Positions 24,676 through 54,379 of a DNA stretch of 64,000 nucleotides are shown piece after piece. How positions within the stretch are numbered: position 1 is the stretch's first letter; every line of letters starts with the position of its first letter. The stretch comes from Planctomycetota bacterium (GTDB taxonomy: Bacteria; Planctomycetota; Phycisphaerae; Phycisphaerales; Phycisphaeraceae): positions 3,162,001-3,226,000 of the forward strand of contig CP066225.1 in NCBI GenBank assembly GCA_016350165.1. The letters run 5' to 3'. A model generated the notes under the pieces. It was given only the letters and a program-made list of their open reading frames with translations. It did not search any database and had not been told where the DNA came from. Made by a program: the position numbers and the translations under genes.

Positions 24676-24984
24676 ATGGGTAAAAAGAGAATCAATACAG
24701 CATTTGTTTGTTACCTCAGCATGATATTAACTGCTATAGCTTTGATTGGTGGCAGAGGTATTTTGTATTGTTATGAGAAGATGCTGCCCCCAGTTGGAAT
24801 GGGTGAAGATTGGGGTAGTTGGTTTGCATTTTTAACAAGTATCATTGTTTTAGTTTTGATTTTATTTATATCGACAATTATCTGCGGATTCGTAGCGATC
24901 GATAAGAAGCAGATGCGCGCACGATGGTTGGTGTTGTATGTCATTTGCACGACGATTTTAATGGCGATTTTTGGTTTGATTTAG
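24676..24984 (+). CDS. Small three-TM membrane protein, unknown
   Basis: 102 residues from the ATG at 24676. Three hydrophobic helices are evident: about 9-30 (FVCYLSMILTAIALIGG), about 47-71 (WFAFLTSIIVLVLILFISTI) and about 82-101 (WLVLYVICTTILMAIFGLI), with basic loops between (IDKKQMRARW). No family is recognised. It overlaps the convergent glycosyltransferase gene by four bases at the stops. It is the first gene inside the G-rich strand block, and its codons (GTT, TTG, GGT) differ from those of ffh next door. Confidence 0.65.
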   Translation: MGKKRINTAFVCYLSMILTAIALIGGRGILYCYEKMLPPVGMGEDWGSWFAFLTSIIVLVLILFISTIICGFVAIDKKQMRARWLVLYVICTTILMAIFGLI

Positions 24985-26195
24985 ACTGACGGGTTGTTGA
25001 GGTAATAGAGTAGGTGATCGATTCGTTTTTTGAAGGTCGCTTCGAAAGTGTTTTCAGCGGCGAAGTCTAAAGCGCGGTGGGCGTGGTCGTAGATGGTTTC
25101 GCGGTCGTGGTCGAGGCGGGTGATGTTGTCGGCGAGTTGTTTTGTGTTGCCGAGTTGAATGGTCCAGCCGATGTTGGTGAGGCGTGAGAGGCCGGAGAGT
25201 GCTTCGTTGTCGTAACCGATGATGGGGACGCCGCAGGAAAAGGTTTCGAGATAAGTGCAGGCGGGATCGCCTTGCAGATGAGGGCAGACGAAGAGGTCAG
25301 CCCATGTTCTTGCGAGGGGGAGCAGTTCTTTTTTGAAGTCGAGGTTGCCTGTGAGTTCGACATGGTCGCGGAGGTTGTAGTTGTCGATGATTTTTTTGAT
25401 TTCAGGAACGGATTCGCCGTCGCCTGCGATTTTCATTTGAAAATGTGTGCGGTTTTCTAGCAAGTAATGTGCGATGTAGGGTAAGTGGATGGCGCCTTTC
25501 ATGGGGATGAGGCGGCCAGAGAAGAGCAGGCGGATGGGGGTGTGGTCGTGACGGCGGGTGTTGATGGTGTCATGAGTGGTGAGCAGATCGGAGGTAACGC
25601 GGGTATCGAAGTAGAGCAGACGATTGGGGTTAACATTTTCGTATTCGTTGTAGGTGGGGGTGCCGTTGCATTGGAGGGCGGTGGCTTGTGCGAGCGCACG
25701 ATTTTTGCGCGGACGTTGTTGGTAAACCCAGATTTTTGAACGAAGTTTGCGTAGGAAGTTTGCGTCGCCTGCATTGATGATTTGAAGTTGGGTGCGGGTG
25801 GAGTATTCGGTGATGTAGATGAGTGGGATGGCGAGTTGTTTGCAGAGCGGCGCGAGGTCGGTTTTGTCGAAGTCGAAACCTGCAAGAACGATGGATGCTT
25901 TTTCGATGGCGGGTTTGAGTGATGTGGGGGTGAAATTGAAGGTGCGGAGTTCGAAGGGCAGGTCTGAAAGTTGGTAGTTGAGGTGGTCGAGGTTTGAGTC
26001 GGTGTTTTGGGATGGCTGTGTGAGCACGCGGATTGGGCCGGGCCAGTGAGTGGCGTATTGGCGCATGCCTTCGACGAATTTTTCGGTGAGGATCACACGG
26101 TCGGCGGTTGGGTTGATTGAGCGCAGATTGGTGATGACAACGAGCAGGTCGTTGGTGTGATCGAGTGATGATGAATCAGCGGGTGATTGGCTCAT
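24981..26195 (-). CDS. Glycosyltransferase, GT-B fold (family 4-like)
   Basis: 404-residue cytoplasmic or membrane-associated glycosyltransferase. The C-terminal half carries the GT4-type donor site: LLFSGRLIPMKGAIHL (about 228-243), MKIAGDGE, HVELTGNLDFKKELLPL, then DPACTYLETFSCGVPIIGYD with the E-x7-E-like region (about 315-335). The N-terminal half is a Rossmann-like acceptor domain. Such enzymes transfer sugars from nucleotide donors to lipids or polysaccharides; donor and acceptor are unknown. No other glycan-assembly gene is near. The start at 26195 (MSQSPADSS) lacks an obvious ribosome binding site. Four-base tail-to-tail stop overlap with the small membrane protein gene. Confidence 0.85.
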   Translation of the reverse strand: MSQSPADSSSLDHTNDLLVVITNLRSINPTADRVILTEKFVEGMRQYATHWPGPIRVLTQPSQNTDSNLDHLNYQLSDLPFELRTFNFTPTSLKPAIEKASIVLAGFDFDKTDLAPLCKQLAIPLIYITEYSTRTQLQIINAGDANFLRKLRSKIWVYQQRPRKNRALAQATALQCNGTPTYNEYENVNPNRLLYFDTRVTSDLLTTHDTINTRRHDHTPIRLLFSGRLIPMKGAIHLPYIAHYLLENRTHFQMKIAGDGESVPEIKKIIDNYNLRDHVELTGNLDFKKELLPLARTWADLFVCPHLQGDPACTYLETFSCGVPIIGYDNEALSGLSRLTNIGWTIQLGNTKQLADNITRLDHDRETIYDHAHRALDFAAENTFEATFKKRIDHLLYYLNNPSV

Positions 26196-26340
26196 GATGC
26201 GGGCGCGGATGTTTGGGGTGAGCAGAGGTGATGATGGTTGATGGGGAATGAATCACGGTTTGAACTTAATGAGTTTATCGGCTTAATGGATTGAAAATCA
26301 AGATGGGATTTGAGGTGGGGTGATGGGGAATGGGGGGAAA

Positions 26341-26527
26341 CGGTTTTGGGCGCGCGTTTTGTTTGGAAATTGGTTTTTGAGTGGGCGGATTTGGGGTGGT
26401 TTTTTTTATGGGTCAGATTGCGGAATGAGGTGGAATGGTTTGGGAATGGTTTGGTTTGGTGGGTAAATACATGGGAATGGGCGAAAATGGCTTATTTTGA
26501 AGCGGTTTTGTGCGCGCGTTTTGTTTG
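26341..26527 (+). repeat. 25-base imperfect direct repeat, two copies
   Basis: Copy 1 at 26341-26365 and copy 2 at 26503-26527 differ at one base; both contain GCGCGCGTTTTGTTTG. Degenerate relatives are near 26582-26600 and 26653-26675. Function unknown. Confidence 0.6.
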
Positions 26528-26831
26528 ATTTAGTGATTTACCCGTAGATGGCAATGGACAGAAATGAGGTGAGTTTGGATAGAAACGGCGCGCTTTGGGT
26601 TGGAAATGATCTGAAATGGTTTGAAAATGAGGAGGTTTTTTGAGGCGATTGCGTGTTTGTGCGCGCGGTTTGATTGAGGGGTGGTTTGGTATGGTTTTTG
26701 CTGTGGTGGTTTGATTGGGTCCTCTATGAGGCCGAACCGGCCATTGGGGTGGTGAGCGAAGGATTTGGTTTTTGGGGGTGGAGGGATGAGGGGGTGTGGG
26801 GGATGAGTGAGTTGTGAGGGATGATGGGATC

Positions 26832-26984
26832 TTTCACTCGAGCGTATCGTCGGTTGGGGAGGAAGAAGAGGGGTGAGGCTTCCGCGGCCCGTAGGTCCGC
26901 GGCTAATTGAGTTTTTTTACTTGAGCGTGTCGCTGGTTGTAGAAATAAAGGGTGGGTTGTTTCACTGTAGCGTATCGTTGGTTG
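26832..26984 (+). repeat. Three diverged copies of a ~25-base element around an inverted repeat
   Basis: Copies start near 26832, 26915 and 26960 and follow the pattern TTTCACT-GAGCGTATCGT then GGTTG. Between copies one and two lies CCGCGG-CC..GG-CCGCGG (26882-26902), a GC-rich inverted repeat that can form an 8-bp stem with single-base bulges. This resembles small dispersed intergenic repeats of planctomycete genomes; that link is from memory, not tested. Confidence 0.5.
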
Positions 26985-27133
26985 GTTGGTTGGTTGGTGG
27001 TGGAGTGTGTATTGGATGATCGTGTTGGGGATGGGGTGATTAAAAAGTGTGGGCGGATGGAGGTGGGTGCGGTATGGTATTGAAGTGATTGGTTGAAGGG
27101 GAATTTGCAGCGCGTTTGTCCGGGAGTTTTTTG

Positions 27134-28858
27134 ATGTTGATGCTTTTGCGTTTGATAGCGAATGGTGTGGTTGGTGAAGAGGAGGGGGCTAATGAGGATG
27201 TGATTGGGGTGATGGGGGAATGGGTTTATGGGGGTGAGGTGGATGAGGTGATGTTGGCAGTGAATGCGACGGTTGAGAAGGGGGGCATTTATACGGTTGA
27301 ATCGTTTAAGGTTTTGGATGTTTGGCAGCTGGGGAGCTTCTTTTGGATTGAGATTGCTTTTGTTGTTGGGTTGCTGGTGCTGATGTGGGGGGTGGTGAGC
27401 GCTTATCGCAGGCGGAGTAAGTTGCGTGATGTGAAGGTGGGTGAAGCGTATTGTGGTAAGTGCGGGTATGGTTTGACGGGGCTTGGTGAGGGGGAAGATG
27501 TTTGCGCTGAGTGCGGTTGCGTGGGGGTGGGTGAAACTGGAAAAGGACGTAAAAGAAAGGTCTTAAAGAAGCGCGTTGTTGGGGGAACATTGATGCGGAT
27601 GGGCGTTGGGTGTGCGGGATTGCTATTGATGATTGGGGTTGGGGCGCTTTGGTATGGGAGCGGGTATAGTCTGGGCGGGGTTGAAGAGAACAGGTGGAAG
27701 TGGGTTGATCGTGTGGCTGCGGTGATTGGCGCGGAAAGTGAATTGACGAACGTGAATGGGATTGTGGGGAGAGGGGTGACGCGATCGGTCAGGAAGCCTG
27801 CATTTAAGGATTGGTTTAGATGGGAGAGTGGATGGTTGTATAGACAGTGCATAGGTGTGGATTGGGCGTTGGCGCAGGATTTTGTCAGGCAGCACTCGGT
27901 GGCTAGACGAGAGCTTGGGTATTTGCGATGTGATGTTGAAGATGGGGCGTGGGTTTATGAAAGGATTTGGCGGGAGGATGGTCATCGGAGGTTGACGGGG
28001 GTGTTTCGTTTGGGAGGTGATCTCTGGCTGAGGTATAACACTGAGGTTCGGTTCCGGGATGATGATCAGTACCAGGAGGGTTTATTGTATTTGGATGATG
28101 AGGGGAGGGGTGGGGAGATGCGCGAGTATGAACTTAAAGGGCTTGCGCAGGAGTTATTTTTTAGAGAAGAGTTGAAGCTGAGGGATGATTATGAACGGGG
28201 GGAAGTGAAGTGGTTGCAGTGGAAACAGTATGGGGTGAGAGAAGGGGTTGATGTTTTGCATGGGGTGAGCGGGGTGATGGGCGGCGGCGTTGAACATGCG
28301 CAACGAAAACATGTGTTTTTTTTAGTCGATCATGTGCAACGGAAAATGATTGGCGTTTGGAATTCTGAGTACATTGAAAAGTCGAAGGGGGAGCAGTGGG
28401 CGAAGCAGGAGATTGGTTGGGAGGACGCGAAGCAGTTGTTGGAGGGGTTTAAAGATTGGGATCGTGGTTGGGAGGTGTTTAAGGTTGGGCTGGGTGAGGG
28501 GTGGATGCAGAGGCAGGGGGTTGAAGAGGAAAATGCTGCTGCGATAGGGATGTGGTGGAAGCAGCCAAGTTTTCGAGGGGGTTATGAGCCTGAGTTCTGG
28601 TCGTGTGGTGGTGGGATACAGATTGGTGAGGAGGGGGATTTGTATTGGAGTGATGGTGATGAAGTGGTGTGGGTGGGGGGTGTAAAAAGTGTTTGGGATC
28701 AGGTGCATGGCGTGCAGTTGGATGAACGCGGGTTTTTGTATGTGGTGGGGATGAAGAAGGGTGAGGATGGTGAGGCGGTGCGTATGGCTTGGGTTTATGA
28801 TTTGCGCGAGCTGATTGGTGAGGTTTTGAGTGCGTACAAAAGTGAGGGGAGTTTGTGA
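27134..28858 (+). CDS. Zinc-ribbon two-TM membrane protein, paralogue 1 of 6
   Basis: 574 residues; family not recognised. The start at 27134 (MLMLLRL) is set by GGGAG seven bases upstream. Layout shared by all six genes: an extracytoplasmic N-terminal part of about 60 residues with GEWVYGGEVDEV; TM1 (about 65-87, WIEIAFVVGLLVLMWGVVSAY); a basic RRRSKLRDVKVGEAY; a zinc ribbon C-G-K-C-x13-C-A-E-C (Cys107, 110, 124, 127); a basic KGRKRKVLKKR; TM2 (about 155-174); then about 400 residues outside. The outer domain has DWFRWESGWLYR, ELGYLRC, and near the C-terminus DERGFLYVVGMKK and MAWVYDLREL. Positive charges around the ribbon put it in the cytoplasm. Gene 2 overlaps its stop. Confidence 0.8.
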   Translation: MLMLLRLIANGVVGEEEGANEDVIGVMGEWVYGGEVDEVMLAVNATVEKGGIYTVESFKVLDVWQLGSFFWIEIAFVVGLLVLMWGVVSAYRRRSKLRDVKVGEAYCGKCGYGLTGLGEGEDVCAECGCVGVGETGKGRKRKVLKKRVVGGTLMRMGVGCAGLLLMIGVGALWYGSGYSLGGVEENRWKWVDRVAAVIGAESELTNVNGIVGRGVTRSVRKPAFKDWFRWESGWLYRQCIGVDWALAQDFVRQHSVARRELGYLRCDVEDGAWVYERIWREDGHRRLTGVFRLGGDLWLRYNTEVRFRDDDQYQEGLLYLDDEGRGGEMREYELKGLAQELFFREELKLRDDYERGEVKWLQWKQYGVREGVDVLHGVSGVMGGGVEHAQRKHVFFLVDHVQRKMIGVWNSEYIEKSKGEQWAKQEIGWEDAKQLLEGFKDWDRGWEVFKVGLGEGWMQRQGVEEENAAAIGMWWKQPSFRGGYEPEFWSCGGGIQIGEEGDLYWSDGDEVVWVGGVKSVWDQVHGVQLDERGFLYVVGMKKGEDGEAVRMAWVYDLRELIGEVLSAYKSEGSL

Positions 28859-30531
28859 TGATGCTGTTAGCGACGCAGAAAATTGAGCCGATGGGGGAGT
28901 GGGTGTTTGGTGCGGAGGTGGGAGAGGTGGAGATGGGGCTTGATATGCGTGTGGATGATGGGGGCGGGGTGGTTTTGATGGAGCAGTTTTATACGATTGA
29001 TTTGTGGGAGTTGGGAGCACACTACTGGATGGAGATTGGTTTTGTGGTGGGGTTGTTGTTGTTTGTGATTGGGGCGGTGGGATTGTGGCGACGAAGAGGT
29101 TGGTTGCGTGATGTGAAGGATGGGGAAGCGTATTGTGGGCGGTGTGGGTATGGGCTGATGGGGTTGAAGGAAGATGGAGATGTTTGCGTGGAGTGTGGGC
29201 GCGAGCAGGTGGGTGATGGGGGGAAGTATCGTAAGGTGCGGAGGAAGCGGTGGGTGAGTTGGAAAAGAGTGAGGTGGGGGTTGGTGTGTTTGGGTTTGGT
29301 GATGTTGCTGACGATGGGGGATTTGATTGTTGGTGCGCGTCGGGATTGGGGGCATGTTGATTGGGTTGCGAGAAAGTTGGGTGTTGAGCGGGATGTGTTT
29401 TGGGTTGGGGTGGTGACAGGGTATGCGCGGCCGACGGAGAAGATTCGTTATGTGGGGTTGAGGGATTGGTTTAGTTTGGAGAGTCGATGGGCGTGCAGGT
29501 TGTTTAACAGGTTGAGTTGGGGGTATCGCGTTCATGGTGTGAGTGATGCGACTAACCAATGGTTAGACGTTTCGCGTGTGATGATGAATGAGCGGGAGTT
29601 GGGTTACGTGAGGATGGAGATGGGTGAGGCGGATTTGAAGTATAGAGAGATTGCTGCTTCTACGTTTTTCATTGGTCAAAGAGTACGTGTGCTTGTGGGG
29701 GTTGATGGTGAGGTGTGGTATTACGTCAAGAAAAATAGTGGGTTTAGGGATTGGTGGACGGCTTATCAGTTGCGGGGTGATGGGAAGTTGATTGAGTATG
29801 AGATGAGTGCTCGGATGAGGCTGTTGTTGGAGGGGGGGAATGATGATTGGATGAATAGTGGTTTTGGGATCATGAAGGTGAGGGTGGGTTTTGAGGAGCA
29901 GGGTGAGTGGTGGCGGTATGAGTTGGGGGATGGGGTTTATGTGTGTCATGGTGTTGGCGGGATTTTTGAGTCGGGGAAATATTTGGCGGGGAGGATGCAT
30001 TGTGTGGTGGCTGTGAATGAGAAGCAGAGAAAGATTGCGGCGATGAAGTGGCAGGAGATATTTGGTAAGAGACGGCAGAAGGATTTGCTGATGGGGGTGG
30101 ATCAATGGGCAGAGATGCAGAAGGTGTTGGATGTGAATCGAAGGGAGGCGGGGTGGAAAGAGGTGCATGAGGTGTTGGGGGATGCATGGCTTAGGGGGAG
30201 TGATCAGGTAACGTTGAAGAAGGCGAGCGGGTTGGAGGTGAAGTCGGATGTGTCGATGAATTTTACATTTGCGAGGGCGAGGGGAATGTCTGTCGCGAGT
30301 GAGGGCACTTTGTTTTGGTGTGATGAAGATGGTGCGGATGCGAGTCGAGGTGATGTGGAGGTGATGCGTGATGTGGGGATGATTGATTTGGGAGATGGGG
30401 AAGTGAAGGGGGCGCGGCTGGATGGGAATGGGATGTTGTATGTGGTGTTGCTGCGACAGAAAGTAGGGTATTGGGAATGGGCGGTGCGCGTTTATGATGT
30501 GAGAGAGATTTTGAAAGAGATTGATGATTAA
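28858..30531 (+). CDS. Zinc-ribbon two-TM membrane protein, paralogue 2 of 6
   Basis: 557 residues from the ATG at 28858, which shares its A with the TGA stop of paralogue 1 (TGATG) and has AGGGGAG six bases upstream; a GTG at 28855 is a possible alternative. N-terminal EPMGEWVFGAEVGEVEMGLD, then YTIDLWELGAHYWMEI entering TM1, WRRRGWLRDVKDGEAYC, zinc ribbon C-G-R-C-x13-C-V-E-C, TM2 around residue 165. The outer domain has VGLRDWFSLESRWACRL, ELGYVRMEM, YELGDGVYVCHGV, VVAVNEKQRKIAAM, VLGDAWL and the closing DGNGMLYVVL ... WAVRVYDVREIL. The N-terminal 180 residues are clearly alike across the set; the rest is much more diverged. The fourth ribbon position keeps Cys, so metal binding should be intact. 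Confidence 0.8.
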   Translation: MMLLATQKIEPMGEWVFGAEVGEVEMGLDMRVDDGGGVVLMEQFYTIDLWELGAHYWMEIGFVVGLLLFVIGAVGLWRRRGWLRDVKDGEAYCGRCGYGLMGLKEDGDVCVECGREQVGDGGKYRKVRRKRWVSWKRVRWGLVCLGLVMLLTMGDLIVGARRDWGHVDWVARKLGVERDVFWVGVVTGYARPTEKIRYVGLRDWFSLESRWACRLFNRLSWGYRVHGVSDATNQWLDVSRVMMNERELGYVRMEMGEADLKYREIAASTFFIGQRVRVLVGVDGEVWYYVKKNSGFRDWWTAYQLRGDGKLIEYEMSARMRLLLEGGNDDWMNSGFGIMKVRVGFEEQGEWWRYELGDGVYVCHGVGGIFESGKYLAGRMHCVVAVNEKQRKIAAMKWQEIFGKRRQKDLLMGVDQWAEMQKVLDVNRREAGWKEVHEVLGDAWLRGSDQVTLKKASGLEVKSDVSMNFTFARARGMSVASEGTLFWCDEDGADASRGDVEVMRDVGMIDLGDGEVKGARLDGNGMLYVVLLRQKVGYWEWAVRVYDVREILKEIDD

Positions 30532-30549
30532 ATTTTCGGGAGCATTAAC

Positions 30550-32265
30550 ATGTTGACGATGGCGATGCAGAGAGCTGGGCGTGTGATTGAGCCTGTGGGT
30601 GAGTATGTTTATCCGGCGAATACGACGTATATCGATTTGGGGATCAAGGTGAAGGAGATGGAAGGGGAAGGGAATGGGATATTTGTATCTGAGGATTATT
30701 ATCTGTTGAATATATGGGCGTTGGGGGTGCATTATTGGTTGGAGATTGTGTTTGTTATAAGCACGATTGTTTTTATGTGGCAAGTTGTGAAGTTGTGGCG
30801 GTTTCGTGAGGGGATGGCTGATGTGAAGGTGGGGGAAGCATTTTGTGCGAAGTGTGGGTATGGGCTGACGGGGTTGGGGGAGGGCGTTGATGTTTGCCCA
30901 GAATGTGGGTGTGCTGGTGTGGGTGAGGGGGGAAAGCGGCGACAGGTGCAGCGGAAATGGGTGATGGGTGGACGGAAGTTTGGGAAGATTGTTGCGGTAA
31001 TGAGTTTGGTTGGGATGTTGATTATGGGTGTGTTTTGGTATGGCGGGTTTGATGCGAATCGTGGTGGGAGACAGTGGCGATGGTTGGATGGTGTGGCGGA
31101 GAAGATGGGTGGCCACGGGCATCTTGCGGGGTCAAAAAGTAATGTGCGGTATTCGATACGAGATATTGGTGCGAAGCAGTGGGTGACGTGGCGGAGTGGA
31201 TGGTTGTACGGTGTTGTTGGGCGTTATGGTGATGGTTTGTTTAAAGGGGTTAGATTGCATGTGGAGCCTGAGGGGGTGATGGGTGCGTTGATGTTAGTTG
31301 ATGGGGAGGTGGTGAGGAAGCCTATGGTGTATGAGGGGGATGAGGGAGAGCGGTATGAGGTGCAAGATTATTTAAGTGGGCCTTATGTGCCGCGTCCTGA
31401 GATGTTTTCGTTGTGTGGGATGCAGTGGTATTACGTTCATGGATGGCATGATGAGCCGGGTGTGTTTTGGATGGATAAAGAAGAGGGTTTAATGAAGTTG
31501 TTTGAGGTTGAGGGACTGAGGGATGTTAAGGATGAGTTGGATGATTTAGATCGCATGCGGGTCGAATTAAGGGAGATGCGTGATGAGGAGATGGGGGGGA
31601 TGAGTGGGGCGAGTGGCAGAAGGGATATGGCTGAATTGGAGATGGGAGAGTGGAACTGGTTTGAGGTGGGAGAAGGTGTTTATTTGCTGCACTGTTATGG
31701 GAGGAAGGTTGATGTTGATTGGTATATTGAGCAAGCGTATCGAAAGCAGACGTTTATCGGGATCGATGTGAATCGAAAGAAGATGATGTGCTTAATGGTG
31801 AAGACTGGGTTGGATGAGTTTGAAGCTGAGGTGAAGCAGGAGGATCGGTGGGCGCGTACGAAGGGGATATTGATGAAGGTGTTGAGCAAGGGAGATGATG
31901 GTGAGGGCTCACGGTTGCTTGCGGTGATTGGTGAGAAATGGCAAGGTGAGAAGAAGTTAAAGGGTGGAGCGGATAAGGGAGCGAAGTTTCAGTATTTAAG
32001 TGAGTCGAATTTTAGTTATGAAGAAAAGTTGTATTTAGTTGATGAAAGACTTGAGGTCGATGAAAAAGGAAAGGTGTACCGGCTAATGGATGGTGCGCAT
32101 GAGAAGGAGCTTGTGGGCGTGTTGGAAGTGGGGGCGGAAGAAATTGATGAAATGAAATTGGATGAAAGTGGGAAGTTGTGGGTGGAAAGTAAAAGCGGTG
32201 ATGAGCAGATTGTGGTGCGGGTTTATGATGTCAGTGAGATTTTGGAAGAGAATGAGAAAAAGTAG
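30550..32265 (+). CDS. Zinc-ribbon two-TM membrane protein, paralogue 3 of 6
   Basis: 571 residues; GGGAG precedes the ATG, 18 bases after paralogue 2. It begins MLTMAMQRAGRVIEPVGEYV, almost the same opening as paralogue 5 (MLTMAMQQ ... RVIEPVGQWV). NIWALGVHYWLEIVFVI leads into TM1; MADVKVGEAFC and ribbon C-A-K-C-x13-C-P-E-C follow; TM2 (IVAVMSLVGMLIMGVFW). The outer domain has IGAKQWVTWRSGWLYG, a highly charged stretch with many Asp, Glu, Arg and Met (about 330-365), FEVGEGVYLLHCYG, IGIDVNRKKMMCLM, VIGEKW and the closing DESGKLWVES ... VVRVYDVSEIL. Substrate or partner unknown. Middle member of the array; 73 bases separate it from paralogue 4. Confidence 0.8.
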   Translation: MLTMAMQRAGRVIEPVGEYVYPANTTYIDLGIKVKEMEGEGNGIFVSEDYYLLNIWALGVHYWLEIVFVISTIVFMWQVVKLWRFREGMADVKVGEAFCAKCGYGLTGLGEGVDVCPECGCAGVGEGGKRRQVQRKWVMGGRKFGKIVAVMSLVGMLIMGVFWYGGFDANRGGRQWRWLDGVAEKMGGHGHLAGSKSNVRYSIRDIGAKQWVTWRSGWLYGVVGRYGDGLFKGVRLHVEPEGVMGALMLVDGEVVRKPMVYEGDEGERYEVQDYLSGPYVPRPEMFSLCGMQWYYVHGWHDEPGVFWMDKEEGLMKLFEVEGLRDVKDELDDLDRMRVELREMRDEEMGGMSGASGRRDMAELEMGEWNWFEVGEGVYLLHCYGRKVDVDWYIEQAYRKQTFIGIDVNRKKMMCLMVKTGLDEFEAEVKQEDRWARTKGILMKVLSKGDDGEGSRLLAVIGEKWQGEKKLKGGADKGAKFQYLSESNFSYEEKLYLVDERLEVDEKGKVYRLMDGAHEKELVGVLEVGAEEIDEMKLDESGKLWVESKSGDEQIVVRVYDVSEILEENEKK

Positions 32266-32338
32266 AACCAAGTGGGTTGGTGTGCGTCTTGAGTGTAGTG
32301 TGATGGATGAAATGGTTTAGCTGATAGGTAACTGTAAG

Positions 32339-34042
32339 ATGTTGATGAGTATGCTGGCGAAAGTTGAGGGGGGGGTGAAGGACGGGGGGATGATTGAGGT
32401 TGCTGCGGAGTGGCGGTTTAGTGATGAGGTGGTGTCGGGGCTGATTGGGTTTGGGCGCAGTGATGGTGAGGGCGGGATGGTTGTGATGGAAACGTTTAGT
32501 AAGTTGGATGTGTGGGAACTGCTGGTTTATTACTGGCTTGAAATTTTTTTGTTGGTTGGGTTGGTGATGTTGGTAGGGGGGTTGGTGGGATTGCGTAGAA
32601 GAAAGCGGCGGCTTGTGGAGGTGAAGGTTGGGGAGGCGTATTGCGGTAAGTGTGGGTATGGATTGACGGGGCTTGGTGAAGCGGTGGATGAATGCCCGGA
32701 ATGTGGGAGTGAGGGCGTGGGGAGTTGTGGGAAGCGAAGGAAGGTGCTTAGGCGGGGGGCTGGTTTTGGGAAGAGTGTGAGGTGGGCTGCGGTTGTGTTG
32801 GGTTTTATCAGTTGTGTGATGATGGGGGTTTTGATTGTTGGTGAGAAGCGTGAATGGGATTGGTTGAATGTTGTGTCGAAAAAGGTGGGGCTGAGTGAGT
32901 CGATGAATGTGACGCGGTATGTTGGGGGGCCGGCGATATTAAATTCGTCAACGAAATTGCCTCTGATCAGACGGTTGGGGGCGATGGATTGGTTTAATTG
33001 GGAGAGCGCGTGGGCGCACCGGATGTTGAAGCATGTGATTAATGAAGATGTGGTGAAAGTGCTGAGCCCGAGTTGGTATCGGTGGGCGGTATTGAAGGTG
33101 GAGGATGGTGAGGTTGTGCGTGAGGTTTTGAAGAAGGCGGATGGTGGGGTGTTTGAGAGAGAGCTTATTGAATCGGGGTTTGGCAATCAAATGTATGTGA
33201 GTTTGATGCGTTTGGGTGGATGGGATTGGTTGTATTTGCCTAAGCAGGTAACGACGGGGGATGAGGATTTGCTGTACCGGATCGAACAGGGTGAGGATGA
33301 GTTTGTGGTGCAGCGGATGCAGACGAACTGGTATGCGGTGAATGGGATGTTGCGCGGTTTTGATTCTGAGCTATGGACAGATTTTGGTGAGGATGAAAAG
33401 AAGCGAGCAACATCGGGGCAGCGGTATGAGGTAGGGGATGGTGTCTATCTGGTGGATAGTCGTGAGACGACTTGGATTGAGATGAAACGAAATAGGACTG
33501 AGCGCAGTTTTTATGTGGTGGATGTGAATGAGGGGCGAATAGCGATGGATCGTGGTTTGGTGAATCTGCAGAAAGATGCGCGTGATTGGGAGCGGATTAA
33601 GAAGTGGTTGTTGGAGGGAGAGAAGAAACGCGAGTGGATGAAGGCGAAGCGGATTAAGCTTGCGTATAAAGAGGCGGAGTTTGTGGCGGCGCTTGGTGAA
33701 GCATGGAAAGAGAAGGAGATGGTTGAGGCGGAGGAGGTTGCAGGACAGGGGGCGAAGATTTTTGATGGGAGTAGATTTAATATGTTGGGGAACTTGCCGA
33801 ACATGGGGGAGGACGTTGGCGGCGGGTATCAACTCTATATTGGGGGATCAATAAGCCATCGTGAATCGGATTGGCATGGACGATTGAGGGGGATTGATGT
33901 AACGACGAAAATTTGTGATGCAGGGATTGATGAGGAGGGTCGGTTGTATGTTGTTGGGCGTGAGGTTGTTGGGGATGATGAGTTGTGGGTGCGGGTGTAT
34001 GAGCTTGGTGAACGCGAAGCGCAGGAAGTTGATGATGAATAA
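32339..34042 (+). CDS. Zinc-ribbon two-TM membrane protein, paralogue 4 of 6
   Basis: 567 residues. It begins MLMSMLAKVEGGVKDGG, then AAEWRFSDEVVSGLIGFGRS and KLDVWELLVYYWLEIFLLVGL at TM1. LRRRKRRLVEVKVGEAYC, ribbon C-G-K-C-x13-C-P-E-C, KRRKVLRRG, TM2 (AAVVLGFISCVMMGVLI). The outer domain has LGAMDWFNWESAWAHRM, AVLKVEDGEVVREVLK, YEVGDGVYLVDS, FYVVDVNEGRIAMD, ALGEAWKEKE and the closing DEEGRLYVVGREV ... WVRVYELGE. The ribosome binding site is weak (AGGTAA). The match to the others is best in the TM1-ribbon-TM2 block and in the repeated VDVN and YVVG motifs. Confidence 0.8.
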   Translation: MLMSMLAKVEGGVKDGGMIEVAAEWRFSDEVVSGLIGFGRSDGEGGMVVMETFSKLDVWELLVYYWLEIFLLVGLVMLVGGLVGLRRRKRRLVEVKVGEAYCGKCGYGLTGLGEAVDECPECGSEGVGSCGKRRKVLRRGAGFGKSVRWAAVVLGFISCVMMGVLIVGEKREWDWLNVVSKKVGLSESMNVTRYVGGPAILNSSTKLPLIRRLGAMDWFNWESAWAHRMLKHVINEDVVKVLSPSWYRWAVLKVEDGEVVREVLKKADGGVFERELIESGFGNQMYVSLMRLGGWDWLYLPKQVTTGDEDLLYRIEQGEDEFVVQRMQTNWYAVNGMLRGFDSELWTDFGEDEKKRATSGQRYEVGDGVYLVDSRETTWIEMKRNRTERSFYVVDVNEGRIAMDRGLVNLQKDARDWERIKKWLLEGEKKREWMKAKRIKLAYKEAEFVAALGEAWKEKEMVEAEEVAGQGAKIFDGSRFNMLGNLPNMGEDVGGGYQLYIGGSISHRESDWHGRLRGIDVTTKICDAGIDEEGRLYVVGREVVGDDELWVRVYELGEREAQEVDDE

Positions 34043-34107
34043 ATGATGGGGGTATTGAAGTGGATGGGGTAAGATGGTGGGAACGTTCACATTCGGAAGG
34101 GCTTTGC

Positions 34108-35841
34108 ATGTTAACGATGGCGATGCAGCAAGTTGAAAGGATGATCGATGGGGAGATGAGTGGTCGGGTGATTGAGCCTGTGGGGCAGTGGGTGGGGGAT
34201 GTGGATGTGAGTCAGGTTGAGATTGGGGTTGGCGGGAGTGATGGTGGGGTATTGATGTGGGAGCGGGGGTTTGCGATTGATCTGTGGGAGGTGGGCGTTT
34301 TTTATCTGGTTGAAGTGATGATGGTGGTGGGGGTGGGCGTGTTATTGTTTGGGCTGATGTGGCTGTGGTTGCGAAGGGGGTGGCTGCGGGAAGTGAAGGT
34401 GGGTGAGGTTTATTGTGGTAAGTGTGGTTATGGTTTGACGGGGATGCAGGACGGGGGCGATGTGTGTCCTGAATGTGGGGTGAAGGGTGTGGGTGATGGT
34501 GGTAAACGCAGGAAGGTTAAGCGGGGTGTGGTGATGAGTGGACGGGGGTTGCGGTGGGCGATTGTGGTGTGCGGATTTTTGGTGCTGATGATGGGTGGGG
34601 TTTTACGCGTCGGGATGAATCGTGATTGGGAATGGGTGGATCGAGTTGGTGTATGGATGGGCGCGGAGGAGCGGCGGGTGAATAAGGCGATGGGCTGGGT
34701 TTATCCAAGTCGTTCGGGCATAAGACGAACAGGGTTGGATGGCTGGTTTAAATGGAAGAGCAGATGGGCGTACCGGATGATGAAGAAGCTTGGGGAGCGA
34801 GGTGATTTTGAAGGTATGAAATTGGCGGTGGTTGATTGGAGTGAATTGCAATGGGTGAGGGTTGAGGATGGTGAGCTTGTGAAGGAAGAGGTGAGGGGTG
34901 GGAGCGAGGTTGGGTTGCGTGAAGTAAGCAGTATGAGGGGTGTGATTGATGGGCATGTGAGTGAGATATTGATGCGTGTGGGGGGGGATCAGGGGGGAGA
35001 TCGGGGGGGTGGTGTGTGGGTGGTGGGTTATAACGAAGTGGGTGATGAGGTCGTGCATTTTGTGGATGAGAAAGAGGAGGAGATGCGTGAGGTTTGGAAG
35101 ATTCAGGAGGAGAGTTTTTTGCTGCTGATGTTGGGGGGATATGAGCAGGGGCTGAGTTATCTTGATGAATTGGATTTGGGGGACGGGCTGTTTTTATTCT
35201 ATGGCTCATTGCGTCGTGAGCAATGGCGTAATGTGCTGATGATGGTGATGGATACGAAGACGGGCGCGATGGCGGTGATGAGTGGGGTGACGGATGTGAA
35301 GCGAAAAGAGGGATCAGTGTGGGAGAGTGCGAAGGCGGTGCTATTGGAATATGAAGGGCGGAATGATGTTTATGATGAAACATTTTTTGAGATGCTTGGA
35401 GAGAAGTGGTGGGAACGCGAAGCGGTGACGTGGCGGAAGGTGAAGAAGGATGAGGTTTGGATGCGCCCGATGCGGATGATGAGTGGTGATGAATTTCAGG
35501 CGGGTGATGAGGTGGTGCTTAGTGATTGGAAATGGTTGCGCGTCGATCCATATTGGCGCGGGTTTGTTGGGGGAGATGGAAATGGTGAGGGAGGTGATCG
35601 GATGGTGGGTGAGTTGGGTTTAGATGTTGGTGATGTGATACGGCCTGGCGAGATTAAGGCGGGGGTTGTTTACAGTTTGTCGGCGGTGCGCATGTGGGTG
35701 GATGAGGTGAATGGGTATGTGTATGTGGTGGGTGATGTGAATGTTGATGGAAAGAAACGATGGATGATTGCTGCTTACCGGTTGGAGGATTGGCTAAATG
35801 GTGGGGATGAAGAAGAAAAGGTGGATGGTGAAAATGAATAG
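34108..35841 (+). CDS. Zinc-ribbon two-TM membrane protein, paralogue 5 of 6
   Basis: 577 residues from the ATG at 34108, chosen because GGAAGGG lies seven bases upstream and the start aligns with paralogue 3; a frame from 34060 would add 16 unrelated residues. RVIEPVGQWVGDVDVSQVEI, FAIDLWEVGVFYLVEV, TM1, WLRREW-type basic stretch then LREVKVGEVYC, ribbon C-G-K-C-x13-C-P-E-C, KRRKVKRG, TM2 (WAIVVCGFLVLMMGGVL). The outer domain has TGLDGWFKWKSRWAYRM, LQWVRVEDGELVKEEV, LDLGDGLFLFYG, MVMDTKTGAMAVM, MLGEKWWERE and the closing VNGYVYVVGDVNVDGKKRW. The C-terminus is acidic (GGDEEEKVDGENE). Very glycine/Met/Asp-rich because of the local base composition. Confidence 0.8.
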   Translation: MLTMAMQQVERMIDGEMSGRVIEPVGQWVGDVDVSQVEIGVGGSDGGVLMWERGFAIDLWEVGVFYLVEVMMVVGVGVLLFGLMWLWLRRGWLREVKVGEVYCGKCGYGLTGMQDGGDVCPECGVKGVGDGGKRRKVKRGVVMSGRGLRWAIVVCGFLVLMMGGVLRVGMNRDWEWVDRVGVWMGAEERRVNKAMGWVYPSRSGIRRTGLDGWFKWKSRWAYRMMKKLGERGDFEGMKLAVVDWSELQWVRVEDGELVKEEVRGGSEVGLREVSSMRGVIDGHVSEILMRVGGDQGGDRGGGVWVVGYNEVGDEVVHFVDEKEEEMREVWKIQEESFLLLMLGGYEQGLSYLDELDLGDGLFLFYGSLRREQWRNVLMMVMDTKTGAMAVMSGVTDVKRKEGSVWESAKAVLLEYEGRNDVYDETFFEMLGEKWWEREAVTWRKVKKDEVWMRPMRMMSGDEFQAGDEVVLSDWKWLRVDPYWRGFVGGDGNGEGGDRMVGELGLDVGDVIRPGEIKAGVVYSLSAVRMWVDEVNGYVYVVGDVNVDGKKRWMIAAYRLEDWLNGGDEEEKVDGENE

Positions 35842-35899
35842 AACTGAGGAGAGGTGGGCGGCGTCTTAATGGAGTCAGATGATTTCGGAGGTAATGGGT

Positions 35900-37558
35900 A
35901 TGCTGATTCTTGGACGCGAAGAAATGGAGAAAGTGATTGAGCCGGCGGCGGAGTGGGTTTATGGGGTGGATACGGTGCGGGTGCAGATTGGTCTTGAAGC
36001 GAAGGGGGGAGATGCGGGGGGATCGGGGGGATTGTATATTTTTGAAGAATGGGGAGCGGTGAATGTTTGGGCGCTTGGGGTGTATTATTGGCTGGAGATT
36101 GTGGGGGTTTTGTGTTTGGTGATGGTGGTGTGGGGACTTATTGGGATATGGCGAAGACGAAGAAAGCTTGCAGATGTGCAGGTGGGTGAGGCGTATTGTG
36201 GGAAGTGTGGTTATGGGCTGACGGGGTTGAGTAAGAAAGATGATGTTTGTCCTGAGTGCGGGTGTGAGGGAGCAGGTGAAGGGGGGAAGAGAAGAAAGGT
36301 GATGAGCAAGCGTGTGAAGGGTGGGGTGTGGTGGCGATGGTGGGTGGTGGGATGCGCGTTTGGTGTGGCGGTGTTGATGGGGGTGATGCGGTATGGTGCG
36401 GATGGGAAGTGGGAGTGGGTGGATCATGTGGCGAAGGTAATGGGAGCGGATACGGATAAGAAAATTTTGAACTTATATACAGGGGAGAATCATTGGATTC
36501 GGCAGATTGGTGCGAAGCGTTGGTTTGTATGGAAGAGTCGGTGGGGGCATCAAGTGCTTAGAGGGTTGGGGATGAATATTGCTTTATTGGGTGAGCATTC
36601 GAGGAAGGGGAGTAGTATTGTTCGGCTTGAAGTGAAGGTGGATGAGGGGGGAGAGGCGAAGATTGAGAGGGAGGTCATGAAGGAGCAAGGTGGGGTGGTG
36701 AAGTTTGAGTGTGTGGGTGATTGGTATATGCAGCCATATCGTGGTCGGTTGCCTCGGCCGATGATGTTTCGGGTTGGTGAGCGTTTGTGGTTTTATGAGG
36801 GAATGGGAATGGAGAGCAGAATTGTTTGTTTTATTGATGAAACGCGAGGGGAATTGTTTGGGGTAGGAGATACGTGGCAGTTTTTTACGCAGATGCGTGA
36901 ACAGATGGTTCGAACGGGGGAGATGTATGAATATGAGATGGGTGAAGGGAAGGTGTTGTTGCATCATCGGAATCGTGATTGGAATATGGATAAGCGAGAG
37001 AAGAAGGAAAACCATGTGTTTTATTTGCTTGATATGAGTGAGCGGAAGCTGAGTAGTTTGGATGGGGAGACGGTGCGGTTCGGTGGGCAGGGGGATTCGT
37101 GGGAGATGGCGAAGTTGATGCTGATGTGGTTTAAGGGGGAGCAGGTAGAGAAGAAAGTGCAGATGGAGCGAGAGGTGTTTTTTGAAATGTTGGGAGATGG
37201 ATGGATGGGATTGAGTCAGGCGGATGTTGGTGGTGGGAAATTGGAGTGTAAGGAGTTTAATCGGCCTACGACGACAGGGTCCGTGTATTCAGTGAGTGGG
37301 TTGCGATGGCCTATAGGCGAGAGTTTGTGGCTGAATAGTAAGGGAGAGGTTTATTTGACGGGGGATGTTGCGGAGCGAAACCAGATGACGCAGTTGGCTG
37401 TAGATGTTGAAGGATTGAGGGATGGGAAACTGGTTGATGGGAGGTGGTTATATCTTGTGAAGAAGCATAAGTCAGAGGAGGGGGTTATTTGGGGTGTGAG
37501 TGTGATTGATTTGAAAGGGGAGATGGGTGAGCAGGTGGAGGAGGGTGGGAGGAAGTGA
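35900..37558 (+). CDS. Zinc-ribbon two-TM membrane protein, paralogue 6 of 6
   Basis: 552 residues from the ATG at 35900 (MLILGREEMEKVIEPAAEWV), eight bases after GGAGG (35887-35891); earlier in-frame ATGs at 35879 and 35894 are too far from or too close to that site. AVNVWALGVYYWLEIVGVL at TM1, WRRRRKLADVQVGEAYC, ribbon C-G-K-C-x13-C-P-E-C, KRRKVMSKRVKGG, TM2 (VVGCAFGVAVLMGVMRY). The outer domain has IGAKRWFVWKSRWGHQV, YEMGEGKVLLHH, FYLLDMSERKLSSL, FEMLGDGWM and SKGEVYLTGDV. The closing VRVYD motif is replaced by VSVIDLKGE after an insertion. Last gene of the array; valS begins 280 bases later. Confidence 0.8.
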   Translation: MLILGREEMEKVIEPAAEWVYGVDTVRVQIGLEAKGGDAGGSGGLYIFEEWGAVNVWALGVYYWLEIVGVLCLVMVVWGLIGIWRRRRKLADVQVGEAYCGKCGYGLTGLSKKDDVCPECGCEGAGEGGKRRKVMSKRVKGGVWWRWWVVGCAFGVAVLMGVMRYGADGKWEWVDHVAKVMGADTDKKILNLYTGENHWIRQIGAKRWFVWKSRWGHQVLRGLGMNIALLGEHSRKGSSIVRLEVKVDEGGEAKIEREVMKEQGGVVKFECVGDWYMQPYRGRLPRPMMFRVGERLWFYEGMGMESRIVCFIDETRGELFGVGDTWQFFTQMREQMVRTGEMYEYEMGEGKVLLHHRNRDWNMDKREKKENHVFYLLDMSERKLSSLDGETVRFGGQGDSWEMAKLMLMWFKGEQVEKKVQMEREVFFEMLGDGWMGLSQADVGGGKLECKEFNRPTTTGSVYSVSGLRWPIGESLWLNSKGEVYLTGDVAERNQMTQLAVDVEGLRDGKLVDGRWLYLVKKHKSEEGVIWGVSVIDLKGEMGEQVEEGGRK

Positions 37559-37837: not shown

Positions 37838-40800
37838 ATGTCTGAGAATCAGGATGTAACACAAGAAGAAGGTCGCGCTGAATTTGAGTTAGCGAGTCAG
37901 TATCGGCCTGAAGAGGTTGAGGGTTCAGTGATGGCGAAGTGGGATGCTGTGAAGGCATGGCACGCGGAGCCTGGGGATGAGGGTGAGGCGTATGGCGTGG
38001 TGATTCCGCCGCCGAATGTTACGGCTGCGCTGCACTTGGGTCATGCACTGAACAATACGCTGCAAGATGTGTTGGTGCGTTACAACCGGATGATGGGTAA
38101 GAATGCGATGTGGATGCCGGGCACGGACCATGCGGGGATCGCAACTCAGACGGTGGTTGAGAAACGTGTGATGGCTGAGGAAGGTAAGAAGCGAACTGAT
38201 TTTGAACGCGATGAGTTCGTGGGCAAGATTCAGGCTTGGAAGGATGAGTATGAGGGGGTGATCAGTGAGCAGTTGAAGGTGATGGGGAGTTCTTGCGACT
38301 GGGATCGTCAACGGTTTACGATGGACGAGCAATGCGCGAAGGCTGTGCGTGAAGCTTTTTATAAGCTTTTTAAGGATGACTTGATTTATCGCGGCAAGCG
38401 ATTGGTGAACTGGGACCCTGCGACGCAGACAGCGCTGGCGGATGATGAAGTTGAAATGAAAGATGTCGATGGGAACTTCTGGTACATGAAGTATCCTGTC
38501 GTGAAGCAGAATGAAAGTGATGAGTGGGAGGAGACGGGTGAGTTTGCAACGGTTGCGACGACGCGCCCTGAGACGATGTTGGGTGATACGGCTGTTGCGG
38601 TGAATCCGAAGGACGAGCCGCGTGCGAAGTTTATTGGTATGCACGTGAAGTTGCCGATTGTCGGGCGCATCATTCCGGTCGTTGGGGATGACTATGTTGT
38701 GATTCCTGATGCGGATAGTGATGACGCGAAGGCGAAGATGGCGAGCGGGTTCCTGAAGGTTACGCCGGCGCATGATACGAACGACTGGGAGATTGGGTTA
38801 AGACATGAACTTGCGGTGGTTAATGTGCTAGGACCTGATGGTGCGATCAGTAAAGATCATGGTTGGGAAGACTGGGATGAGTGTTCTATTCAAGAGTTAG
38901 ATCCTGTCTTGGGCCTTTCTCGTGAAGAAGCGCGTAAATGGATTGTGCGCTGGTTCAAAGAAAAAGAATTGATGGAAGACATCAAGCCTTATCGTCACGC
39001 GGTTGGTCATAGTTACCGATCGCATGTTGCGGTTGAGCCTTGGCTGAGTGACCAGTGGTACGTGAAGGTTGCGGATGATCGTTTGGCGGGTGCGGCGCTT
39101 CGTGCGATGGAAGGTGAACAGCGTCAGGAATTGGATGGTTGTGTATGGAAGAGTGGCGATTCGTTTGCTTGTAAGGATGGGCGCGCACCGCAGGGTGATT
39201 GGGAAGGTGGCTTGACGTTCTTCCCGAATCGTTATGCGAAAACTTTCCAGATGTGGCATGAGAATATCCGTGACTGGTGTATTTCACGTCAGTTGTGGTG
39301 GGGCCACCGTATTCCGGTTTGGTCATTTAAGAATGATGAGAAGATTGATTCACGCAGCGATGAGCAGTTGAAGCTGATGCTTGAAACGCTTGTTGGGATG
39401 CGTAATGAAGATCGTATTGCGTTGCAGCATAATCAGACTGAAATGAAGGGGCAGCAGCGTCAGGTTGATCTAAGCGCGAGTTATATTTGTGTGCGTAGCG
39501 AGGATGATGAGGCTGCGATGCAGTTGCTGGAAGACCTTGGTTTTGAGCAAGATCCTGATGTTTTGGATACTTGGTTTAGCTCGGCGCTTTGGCCGATGAG
39601 CACGATGGGTTGGGTGAATGATCGTGCGTTGGATGCTGCGAATGAAGTGTTGCAGAAGTGGAATCCGACGAGTGTTCTGAGTACGGCTAGAGAGATTATT
39701 ACGTTGTGGGTTAGCCGCATGGTGATGTTCAACGTCTATTTTATGAATAGGCTGCCGTTTAAACATGTGTTTATCCATGCGATGATCCAGGATGGTCATG
39801 GGCAGAAGATGAGTAAGTCGCTGGGTAACGGCGTTGATCCACTGGACATTATTCATAGTCACGGTGCGGATGCGATGCGTTTCACTTTGACGAGTATGAC
39901 GACACAGACTCAGGATGTGAGAATGCCGGTTGATATGGTTGATCCGCATACTGGAGAGACGTTTACGCCGAAGTACATCACGGCGAGTGGTGGTCATAAG
40001 GTTGCGGCTCCTGAACAAGAGTTCAAGGGCGGTAAGATGATTAGCTCATATGGTGTTGCTTCAGGTGTTGCGAAACCAAGTGAGGAAGCACCTGCTGCAC
40101 GTAATACAAGTGAGAAGTTTGATTACGGCCAACGGTTTGCGAATAAGCTTTGGAATGCGGTGCGATTCAGCTTGGGTAACTTGAGTGAAGGTGAACAGGT
40201 TGAAGGGCCTGTTGAGCCAATGGATGAGAAGTTAGGTTTGGCTGATCGTTGGATCATTGGCCGCTTGGCGAAGGTGATGGAAGCATCGAGCAAGGCTTTG
40301 AAAAACTATGAATTCAGCGTGTATACGCAGGATTTGTATGATTTCTTCTGGCGTGATCTTTGTGACTGGTACATTGAAGCTGTTAAGCCAACGATTAAAG
40401 ATAATGGTGCACAGAAACAGGTTTTGGCGACATGTATTGATGTGTCGTTGAGGTTGTTACACCCATCAATGCCGTTTGTTACTGAGAAGCTTTGGGAAGC
40501 GTTGAATGTGACGATGCCTAAGCGCGGGATAGTCGGTATTGATGCTAAAGGTAATGAGTTGTTGATGAAGGCAGCTTGGCCGAAGGTTAATGTGCTGCAT
40601 GTTGATGAACATGCTGGTGAGATCTTCGATAAGATGCAAACAGTGATCGGCGCGATTCGTGAAGTGAGAACAACTTACAAGGTTGCACCGAGACAGGAAG
40701 TCGAGGTTTCTGTTAAGGGGCCGAAGCATAGCATTGAGCGTGTGTTGGTTGATGGTGGATTTGCTGAGGCGCTAGCTAACATGAAGTTAGTTGCGTTTGG

Positions 40801-41074
40801 TGATGATGTTGAAAAACCAGCAGATGCTGCATCGGCGACGATGGGCGAGTTTGAAATTTATGTTCATGGATTGATTGATGCAGAGCTTGAGCGTGAGCGT
40901 CTTGAAAAGCGTAAGGGTGATCTTGAGAAGAGTGTAGGTGCTCTTAATGGTAGATTGTCGAACAGTAATTATGTCGACAAGGCACCGGCTCATCTAGTGC
41001 AGCAGACGCGTGATCAGCTTGCGGATGCTGAGAAAGAATTGGCGAATATTGTGAGCCAACTTGAAGCACTTTGA
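37838..41074 (+). CDS. valS: Valyl-tRNA synthetase
   Basis: 1078-residue class I synthetase charging tRNA-Val. PPPNVTAALHLGHALNNTLQ carries the HIGH-type motif HLGH at about residues 65-68. MPGTDHAGIATQ follows, the editing-domain motif TTRPETMLGDTAVAVNP is near 245, and KMSKS (GQKMSKSLGNGVDP) is near 655. The C-terminal coiled coil (about 1010-1078, ERERLEKRKGDLEK type) is typical of ValRS. Two inserts (about 515-560 and 700-765) make it longer than the usual 880-950 residues. It is a core gene inside the G-rich strand block and shares its composition, which argues that the block is native chromosome rather than a pure foreign island. A terminator follows. Confidence 0.97.
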   Translation: MSENQDVTQEEGRAEFELASQYRPEEVEGSVMAKWDAVKAWHAEPGDEGEAYGVVIPPPNVTAALHLGHALNNTLQDVLVRYNRMMGKNAMWMPGTDHAGIATQTVVEKRVMAEEGKKRTDFERDEFVGKIQAWKDEYEGVISEQLKVMGSSCDWDRQRFTMDEQCAKAVREAFYKLFKDDLIYRGKRLVNWDPATQTALADDEVEMKDVDGNFWYMKYPVVKQNESDEWEETGEFATVATTRPETMLGDTAVAVNPKDEPRAKFIGMHVKLPIVGRIIPVVGDDYVVIPDADSDDAKAKMASGFLKVTPAHDTNDWEIGLRHELAVVNVLGPDGAISKDHGWEDWDECSIQELDPVLGLSREEARKWIVRWFKEKELMEDIKPYRHAVGHSYRSHVAVEPWLSDQWYVKVADDRLAGAALRAMEGEQRQELDGCVWKSGDSFACKDGRAPQGDWEGGLTFFPNRYAKTFQMWHENIRDWCISRQLWWGHRIPVWSFKNDEKIDSRSDEQLKLMLETLVGMRNEDRIALQHNQTEMKGQQRQVDLSASYICVRSEDDEAAMQLLEDLGFEQDPDVLDTWFSSALWPMSTMGWVNDRALDAANEVLQKWNPTSVLSTAREIITLWVSRMVMFNVYFMNRLPFKHVFIHAMIQDGHGQKMSKSLGNGVDPLDIIHSHGADAMRFTLTSMTTQTQDVRMPVDMVDPHTGETFTPKYITASGGHKVAAPEQEFKGGKMISSYGVASGVAKPSEEAPAARNTSEKFDYGQRFANKLWNAVRFSLGNLSEGEQVEGPVEPMDEKLGLADRWIIGRLAKVMEASSKALKNYEFSVYTQDLYDFFWRDLCDWYIEAVKPTIKDNGAQKQVLATCIDVSLRLLHPSMPFVTEKLWEALNVTMPKRGIVGIDAKGNELLMKAAWPKVNVLHVDEHAGEIFDKMQTVIGAIREVRTTYKVAPRQEVEVSVKGPKHSIERVLVDGGFAEALANMKLVAFGDDVEKPADAASATMGEFEIYVHGLIDAELERERLEKRKGDLEKSVGALNGRLSNSNYVDKAPAHLVQQTRDQLADAEKELANIVSQLEAL

Positions 41075-54215: not shown

Positions 54216-54379
54216 CAAAACAACGACAGGCATCCCAGTTGATAATTCGCACGTCTCAGTGCAAACACACTATCCCTCATGTGTTGTGACTATTTTCTCA
54301 AACTTAACTCAGTATGGCAAATCAAAAATACGCTTACTTGCTATCCTACCTATCTTTACGTTCGCTCATCCCCATCCTG

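Follow-up and report, generated by a model that had tools for sequence, protein, structure and literature searches.

Organization of the Array

The DNA analyzed here is a stretch of 64,000 nucleotides (hereafter the window; positions 3,162,001 to 3,226,000 of contig CP066225.1, assembly GCA_016350165.1) from a marine planctomycete whose genome is a single contig. It carries an array of six consecutive genes for related membrane proteins, which may belong to a family of membrane-tethered periplasmic beta-propellers of the Phycisphaerae. The host is referred to below as Poriferisphaera heterotrophicis ZRK32, and the genome of the same genus used for comparison as P. corsica KS4 (both names were inferred from the data at hand); in PMC10945688, the genome sizes of these two strains are given as 5,234,020 and 4,291,168 bases, respectively. 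As proposed in the first-pass annotation of this DNA, the array consists of six consecutive same-strand paralogues of shared design, and all six frames are intact. The upper end of the annotated length range of 552–577 residues was reproduced, but not the lower one, the measured lengths being 558–577 amino acids (aa). The genes, in window positions, are as follows.

27134–28858, plus strand: gene 1, 574 aa; N-segment/blade 27134–27340, first transmembrane (TM1) peak 27341–27397, ribbon 27452–27514, second transmembrane (TM2) peak 27599–27655, outer domain 27656–28855
28855–30531, plus strand: gene 2, 558 aa, GTG start, 4-base overlap with gene 1; TM1 29029–29085, ribbon 29134–29196, TM2 29281–29337, outer domain 29338–30528
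30550–32265, plus strand: gene 3, 571 aa; TM1 30739–30795, ribbon 30844–30906, TM2 30979–31035, outer domain 31036–32262
32339–34042, plus strand: gene 4, 567 aa; TM1 32537–32593, ribbon 32642–32704, TM2 32786–32842, outer domain 32843–34039
34108–35841, plus strand: gene 5, 577 aa from ATG, with a GTG at 34060 also possible; TM1 34291–34347, ribbon 34414–34476, TM2 34561–34617, outer domain 34618–35838
35879–37558, plus strand: gene 6, 559 aa; N-segment/blade to 36091, TM1 36092–36148 (holding the invariant Glu), ribbon 36197–36259, TM2 36344–36400, outer domain 36401–37555

The spacings between consecutive genes are −4, 18, 73, 65, and 37 bases. An in-frame stop is found 3–6 codons upstream of the start in four of the six genes, the start codons of which are well fixed; the earlier statement that the start sites are independently supported thus holds for these four, while genes 1 and 5 are less tightly bounded (15 and 23 codons, respectively). 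It follows that the four copies with fixed starts have no classical signal peptide. In several distant relatives, a hydrophobic N-terminal stretch resembling a signal peptide is present. The numbers of sigma-70 promoters (3 found versus 7.7 in shuffled sequences) and terminators (5 versus 4.4) predicted in the array were near the shuffle level or below it, and, therefore, no transcript map was drawn.

Shared Design and Membrane Topology

Sequence comparison puts the similarity among the six copies far beyond chance; with gene 4 as a query, the other five are found at E-values of 3.9 × 10−29 or lower. All six proteins are composed of an acidic N-terminal segment, TM1, a basic loop with a ribbon, TM2, and an outer domain of about 400 residues. 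Each has two hydrophobic peaks with 61–71 residues between them, and in each a C-x2-C-x13-C-x2-C ribbon with the same 13-residue spacing lies inside the inter-TM loop. The pattern agrees with that of zinc ribbons, suggesting that the loop may bind zinc. Per copy, the N-segment contains 2–5 K/R and 8–12 D/E residues, the loop 11–18 K/R and 6–9 D/E, and the outer part is net acidic; this charge distribution is consistent with an N-out, loop-in, C-out arrangement. Thus, the topology and the ribbon spacing annotated in the first pass were recovered in all six copies, but the motifs proved looser: EPxGEWV occurs literally in a single copy, and the core motifs CGKCGYGLTGL and DVCPECG, as read off the alignment, are exact in three copies each. 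The N-block is 38–50% identical from copy to copy and the outer domain 20–27%, in line with the initial description of a conserved N-terminal block and a strongly diverged outer domain.

In a 34-row family alignment, which includes 17 distant members described below, every row has the four Cys, the Tyr, and the second-knuckle Glu of the ribbon, and an equally invariant Glu is located at the outer end of TM1. The distant rows were picked by the ribbon pattern, so that the invariance of Cys and Tyr in them is given by construction; neither Glu is part of that pattern.

Searches against Described Families

None of the six copies reached a cut-off in Pfam or NCBIfam, none was listed with any Pfam propeller family at E ≤ 1, and none matched the PADLOC anti-phage models at E ≤ 0.1. 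The query with gene 4 gave no match in phage records, and a scan of viral contigs returned 16 pattern stretches, of which none was confirmed. The same was true of the 251 and 20 pattern stretches obtained in contig profile scans with two alignments, in a set that may omit near genomes; relatives were subsequently found by direct genome search. No published account of the family or of the array was found in the open-licence literature, subscription journals not being covered. The profile searches therefore did not place the six proteins in one well-characterized family, and the earlier view that no described system has such an array is borne out as regards Pfam, NCBIfam, and PADLOC. The array is, however, not unique in kind, as the genome carries six more, scattered members and 18 same-strand clusters of matches to the ribbon profile.

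Distribution of the Family

The N-block profile identified 12 full family members in ZRK32: the six of the array, two in tandem at 1.13 Mb, and four that stand alone. A 13th member at 3.014 Mb (L030, 7314–9046) is split between two frames inside the ribbon, either as a broken gene or through a sequencing error, and a diverged 14th member of 676 aa at 2.997 Mb (L083, 1513–3543, minus strand) retains the TM1 Glu and the ribbon. In a search of 41 genomes, the outer-domain profile gave matches only in ZRK32 (12 places) and P. corsica (five), the remaining 39 being without a match. At E ≤ 1 × 10−10, the Poriferisphaera N-block profile matched at least 17 of 151 genomes of the order, its own and P. 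corsica included, with some matches covering the TM-ribbon part only. When the 34-row N-block profile was used, matches extending from the N-segment beyond TM2 were obtained in at least 6 of the 198 genomes sampled from the class, its own included (G000, G014, G022, G026, G391, and G482), and in the phylum sample at least 10 of 294 genomes matched at E ≤ 1 × 10−8, all in the order of the window. The counts for order, class, and phylum are lower bounds, with at most 24, 17, and 11 candidates, respectively, scored per genome. Among the places listed, there was no second array of this family, the other genomes having one to four scattered full copies. The arrayed arrangement as such therefore did not recur there, although relatives scattered through the Phycisphaerae did come to light.

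Of 21 distant open frames considered, 17 entered the family alignment, and the other four, which lack an N-terminal outer segment, were excluded; loci L107 and L115 had no frame with the ribbon pattern and were left out. The Poriferisphaera profile (17 members) aligned with that of the distant members at 99.7% probability (E-value, 5.1 × 10−27); the 197 aligned columns begin in the N-segment, run past TM2, and end early in the outer domain. The Poriferisphaera and the distant members share the same features, i.e., N-segment, TM1 with the invariant Glu, ribbon, TM2, and outer domain. The array represents an old branch of a Phycisphaerae family, one that has expanded in the genus.

Ribbon Arrays in the ZRK32 Genome

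In ZRK32, the N-block or the ribbon was matched 99 times at E ≤ 0.01, with 150 of 183 candidates scored; two of these were second matches of genes already listed, and their removal left 97. Of these, 53 fall into 18 clusters with starts no more than 4 kb apart, each on one strand. In 2000 runs of random placement, the number of clustered matches averaged 13.35 and never exceeded 29. The random placement ignores operons, and many of the 97 matches are weak, not all having been checked as membrane proteins. The array in the window is the largest of the ribbon clusters, and other arrays carry other outer domains, judging by eye. CGYDLRG-ribbon genes thus tend toward tandem arrays in this genome.

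Three other clusters illustrate their variety. At 2.80 Mb (L058, 2869–11354), there are five tandem ribbon membrane proteins of 346–624 aa, which lack an N-terminal outer segment and whose outer domain is of another kind. At 1.97 Mb (L026, 2993–10987), a two-gene unit is repeated three times in tandem, a ribbon protein of 495–545 aa being followed by an overlapping one of 340–350 aa with a degenerate ribbon, which looks like a repeated hetero-pair. At 1.63 Mb (L024), a one-strand cluster encodes short TM-ribbon-TM proteins of about 115–240 aa, nearly a bare hairpin.

An extreme strand asymmetry was also observed in base composition. The coding strand of the array (27134–37558) contains 41–45% G and 8–9% C, and four family members on the minus strand of the contig 11–15% G and 27–35% C (loci compared: L021, L022, L023, L025, and L057). 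The amino acid composition of the paralogues tracks the strand: in the six array copies versus the four minus-strand ones, Gly makes up 13.9 versus 3.6%, Val 11.9 versus 3.3%, and Pro 1.0 versus 5.8%.

Age, Synteny and Selection

The array is flanked by two genes that served as locus markers.

24981–26195, minus strand: glycosyltransferase-like gene (named by eye), 72.5% identical to the P. corsica gene at the same place
37838–41074, plus strand: valyl-tRNA synthetase gene valS (named by eye), with 88.4% identity to the counterpart in P. corsica

The 938-base gap ahead of the array (26196–27133) and the gap before valS were examined for a degenerate additional copy; the best tblastn E-value was 0.046, and the possibility was rejected. 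At gathering scores, Rfam matched the window at a single tRNA gene (54144–54216, minus strand) and nowhere else.

Of the five members in P. corsica, one occupies the same locus (L053), in the interval from valS to the glycosyltransferase gene, and a second lies some 36 kb away. At L053 (8151–9602), two genes on the opposite strand, by eye isochorismatase-like and YHS-like, separate valS from the single member that is present where ZRK32 carries the array. In the tree, gene 3 groups with the same-locus P. corsica copy (support 94/94, too low to count as a firm branch), and gene 6 groups with the P. corsica copy some 36 kb away, copy A (96/98). Monophyly of the six window copies is rejected by the approximately unbiased (AU) test (p = 0.0024), and with it a recent expansion in ZRK32 only. 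These groupings and the AU result suggest that at least two lineages of the array are older than the split between the two species, and P. corsica has probably lost array copies; the tree should be read with caution in view of gene conversion, long branches, and uneven composition.

Divergence of the outer domains had been taken in the first-pass annotation as a sign that each copy recognizes a different partner. Receptors diversified under selection for specificity would agree with the lower identity of the outer domain than of the N-block, and with the lack of any catalytic family for the six copies. In the one tight orthologous pair (ZRK32 4.69 Mb/P. corsica 1.72 Mb; identity 72% in the N-block and 64% in the outer domain), however, the ratio of nonsynonymous to synonymous substitution rates (dN/dS) is 0.185/0.59 = 0.31 for the N-block and 0.234/0.73 = 0.32 for the outer domain. 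This pair is thus under purifying selection with no acceleration of the outer domain; the three pairs with array copies have a dS of 1.2–1.5, which is too high for a domain-by-domain comparison. No recurrent neighbor gene was found across the family either. We consider it unlikely that each copy is a receptor for a different partner, and the claim drawn from their divergence is unsupported.

Another explanation is that the family is weakly constrained and turns over fast, so that copies arise and decay, their composition follows the mutation bias of the strand, and single copies matter little. The probable P. corsica orthologues of array genes are only about 35% identical, versus 72–90% for the three neighbors compared (valS, 88%; an Ffh-like gene, 90%; glycosyltransferase, 72%), one ZRK32 copy is frameshifted, and the residue make-up flips with the strand. 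This explanation also appears doubtful, given the purifying selection in the tested pair, the invariance of the TM1 Glu and the second-knuckle Glu in all 34 rows, and the six intact frames of the array.

Fold of the Outer Domain

A propeller fold is well supported by sequence profiles for the distant members. Against the PDB, their profile matched WD40/YVTN propellers (among the 60 listed of 200 matches), including 1l0q (E-value, 1.3 × 10−13), PkwA (2.7 × 10−12), and YncE (7.6 × 10−10), along with two zinc-finger chains matched via the ribbon. With the distant outer domain alone, 48 PDB sequences were matched at E ≤ 0.01, nearly all with propeller names. A blade pattern, 'SPDGrxlxV ... vxvxDl', is readable in the distant members and also in their N-segments, as in this example from one of them: SSVCFSPDESVAYVHQADTVIDVW. 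A profile of the distant N-segments (55 positions; 16 rows, one near-duplicate of the 17 members being omitted) matched 22 PDB sequences under an E-value of 0.01, all of which we take to be propellers or propeller fragments; among natural proteins, these were 1l0q (1.8 × 10−8), PkwA (3.2 × 10−5), RACK1 (from 1.6 × 10−4), and Apaf-1 (1.8 × 10−4). When the distant N-segment was compared with 53 windows of its own family's outer domain, the best match was at the C-terminal end (55% probability; E-value, 1.2 × 10−4).

For the window copies, a propeller fold is moderately supported. The best of ten PDB matches of the outer-domain profile of the window family is the designed propeller Pizza6 (1.5 × 10−4 and 2.8 × 10−4), with LRP6 propellers at 0.44. 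In VIA-align, the full-length model of gene 6 matched 39 of 989 chains at Z ≥ 8, with Neu2 sialidase, DCAF1, and the LRRK2 WD40 domain at the top (Z = 10.0); the root-mean-square deviations of the top matches were 2.8–3.7 over 121–145 aligned residues. The best 50 matches (Z 7.6–10) are nearly all propellers, judging by their names, and most of them span the model from residue ~11–23, in the N-segment, to ~545–559.

Several results weigh against the propeller fold or the nesting of the hairpin in it. The gene 6 model is poor (mean predicted local distance difference test score (pLDDT), 50.8; predicted template modeling score (pTM), 0.40), ring closure was not seen in this low-confidence model, its Foldseek TM-scores are about 0.1, and in VIA-align a best Z of 7 to 8 is typical even of models that have no clear match. 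A model of the outer domain of gene 1 (pLDDT, 42.4) matched no chain at Z ≥ 5; it was built without the N-segment but is also another sequence, so that it neither proves nor refutes a role of that segment. The window and distant outer domains did not align by profile (6% probability), profiles of the Poriferisphaera copies A1 and A5 matched no propeller, and the Pfam propeller cut-offs were unreached even by distant members, among which PD40 was found in one (17.7 bits versus a cut-off of 20.9) and weak matches to the TEP1 and WDR5 propellers in one and two of 17, respectively. Of 14 matches of the reversed N-segment profile, one was under 0.3, namely, that to the designed protein 8pjs, at 1.5 × 10−18, presumably itself a designed propeller. 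The control therefore falls short of being fully clean, and matches to designed chains with exact repeats (WRAP, 2ymu, and Pizza6) have inflated E-values. Such E-values were discounted as support, and weight was placed on the matches to natural proteins. Finally, across 16 loci no neighbor gene recurred with the family beyond the members themselves, close-pair synteny, and a few matches of unrelated kind.

Two further results bear on the nesting in particular: within Poriferisphaera, the N-segment did not match the outer domain (0.1% probability), and the three alignments printed for the whole-family PDB search involve the outer domain only. Both would fit an outer propeller preceded by a separate small outer beta domain, with the hairpin not nested, an arrangement that is possible but not likely. 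It has against it the matches of the distant N-segments alone to propeller blades, with a reversed control clean save for one designed protein, and the alignments of the full-length gene 6 model, most of which start within the N-segment. The nesting of the hairpin in the propeller is thus moderately supported, and the N-terminal segment, initially annotated as a separate external part, is probably a blade of the outer domain instead.

Proposed Architecture and Function

The reading that we favor, with moderate confidence, treats the six genes as old paralogues within a Phycisphaerae family of periplasmic beta-propellers tethered to the membrane, in which a membrane hairpin is nested after the first blade and which act as non-enzymatic binding scaffolds. 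The N-terminal 58–71 residues would lie outside the inner membrane and form blade 1. The chain would then enter the membrane via TM1, with the invariant Glu at its outer end, the basic cytoplasmic loop would form a two-CxxC zinc ribbon, and TM2 would return the chain to the outside, where the remaining blades would complete the propeller, the blade-closing 'vrVYDl' strand coming last. The TM1-ribbon-TM2 hairpin would, in this way, be an insertion inside the propeller. The propeller may bind a ligand or partner in the envelope or outside the cell; the hairpin would anchor the propeller at the membrane and offer a cytoplasmic zinc-ribbon docking site. As no catalytic family was reached, the proteins are read as a binding scaffold or a receptor with a docking site inside; we infer that a binding role without enzymatic activity is the most likely function.

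It is also conceivable, but rather improbable, that the proteins are split-propeller receptors, in which binding of a periplasmic ligand or closure of the ring pulls TM1 via the invariant Glu and moves the cytoplasmic ribbon. In that case, the six copies would be switches of this kind kept as a repertoire, in one of the many ribbon arrays of the genome.

If the nesting is true, the family represents a beta-propeller ring interrupted by a membrane-crossing hairpin, a topology not found in the open-licence literature, and a fold would be assigned to one subfamily of the abundant CGYDLRG-ribbon proteins. With a cultivated host and public RNA sequencing data, this reading is testable.

Comparison with Known Systems

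The WD40/YVTN propellers, such as the surface layer protein 1l0q, the WD40 domain of PkwA (5yzv), and YncE (3vgz), have the blade pattern in common with the distant members and their N-segments, whereas the window copies have lost most of the recognizable blade sequence. To our knowledge, none of these three has a membrane hairpin inside the propeller.

In PqiA and YebS (LetA), a zinc ribbon is located in a short cytoplasmic stretch adjoining transmembrane helices, and this placement is what the window family has in common with them. If the hairpin were a PqiA/LetA-like membrane module, the proteins might serve envelope lipid transport. TIGR00155 (pqiA_fam) was matched over TM1-ribbon-TM2 by one of the 17 distant members (E-value, 0.0021), but at 17.2 bits against a cut-off of 260.35, and by none of the six window copies. 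We know of no propeller in PqiA. The neighbor genes were compared only with one another, no search being aimed at an MCE partner. A role in lipid transport is, on these grounds, very improbable.

The TcaA/YvbJ-type proteins of Firmicutes have a cytoplasmic zinc ribbon, one transmembrane segment, and a large outer domain, and thus resemble the window family in having the ribbon inside and the domain outside. As far as we know, they have a single transmembrane segment with no outer segment before it, and their outer fold is not a propeller.

A further comparison is offered by other CGYDLRG-ribbon proteins of ZRK32. The proteins of the 2.80 Mb and 1.97 Mb arrays differ from the window family in having no N-terminal outer segment and outer domains that look unrelated by eye, but they likewise run from TM-ribbon-TM into an outer domain and are likewise encoded in tandem.

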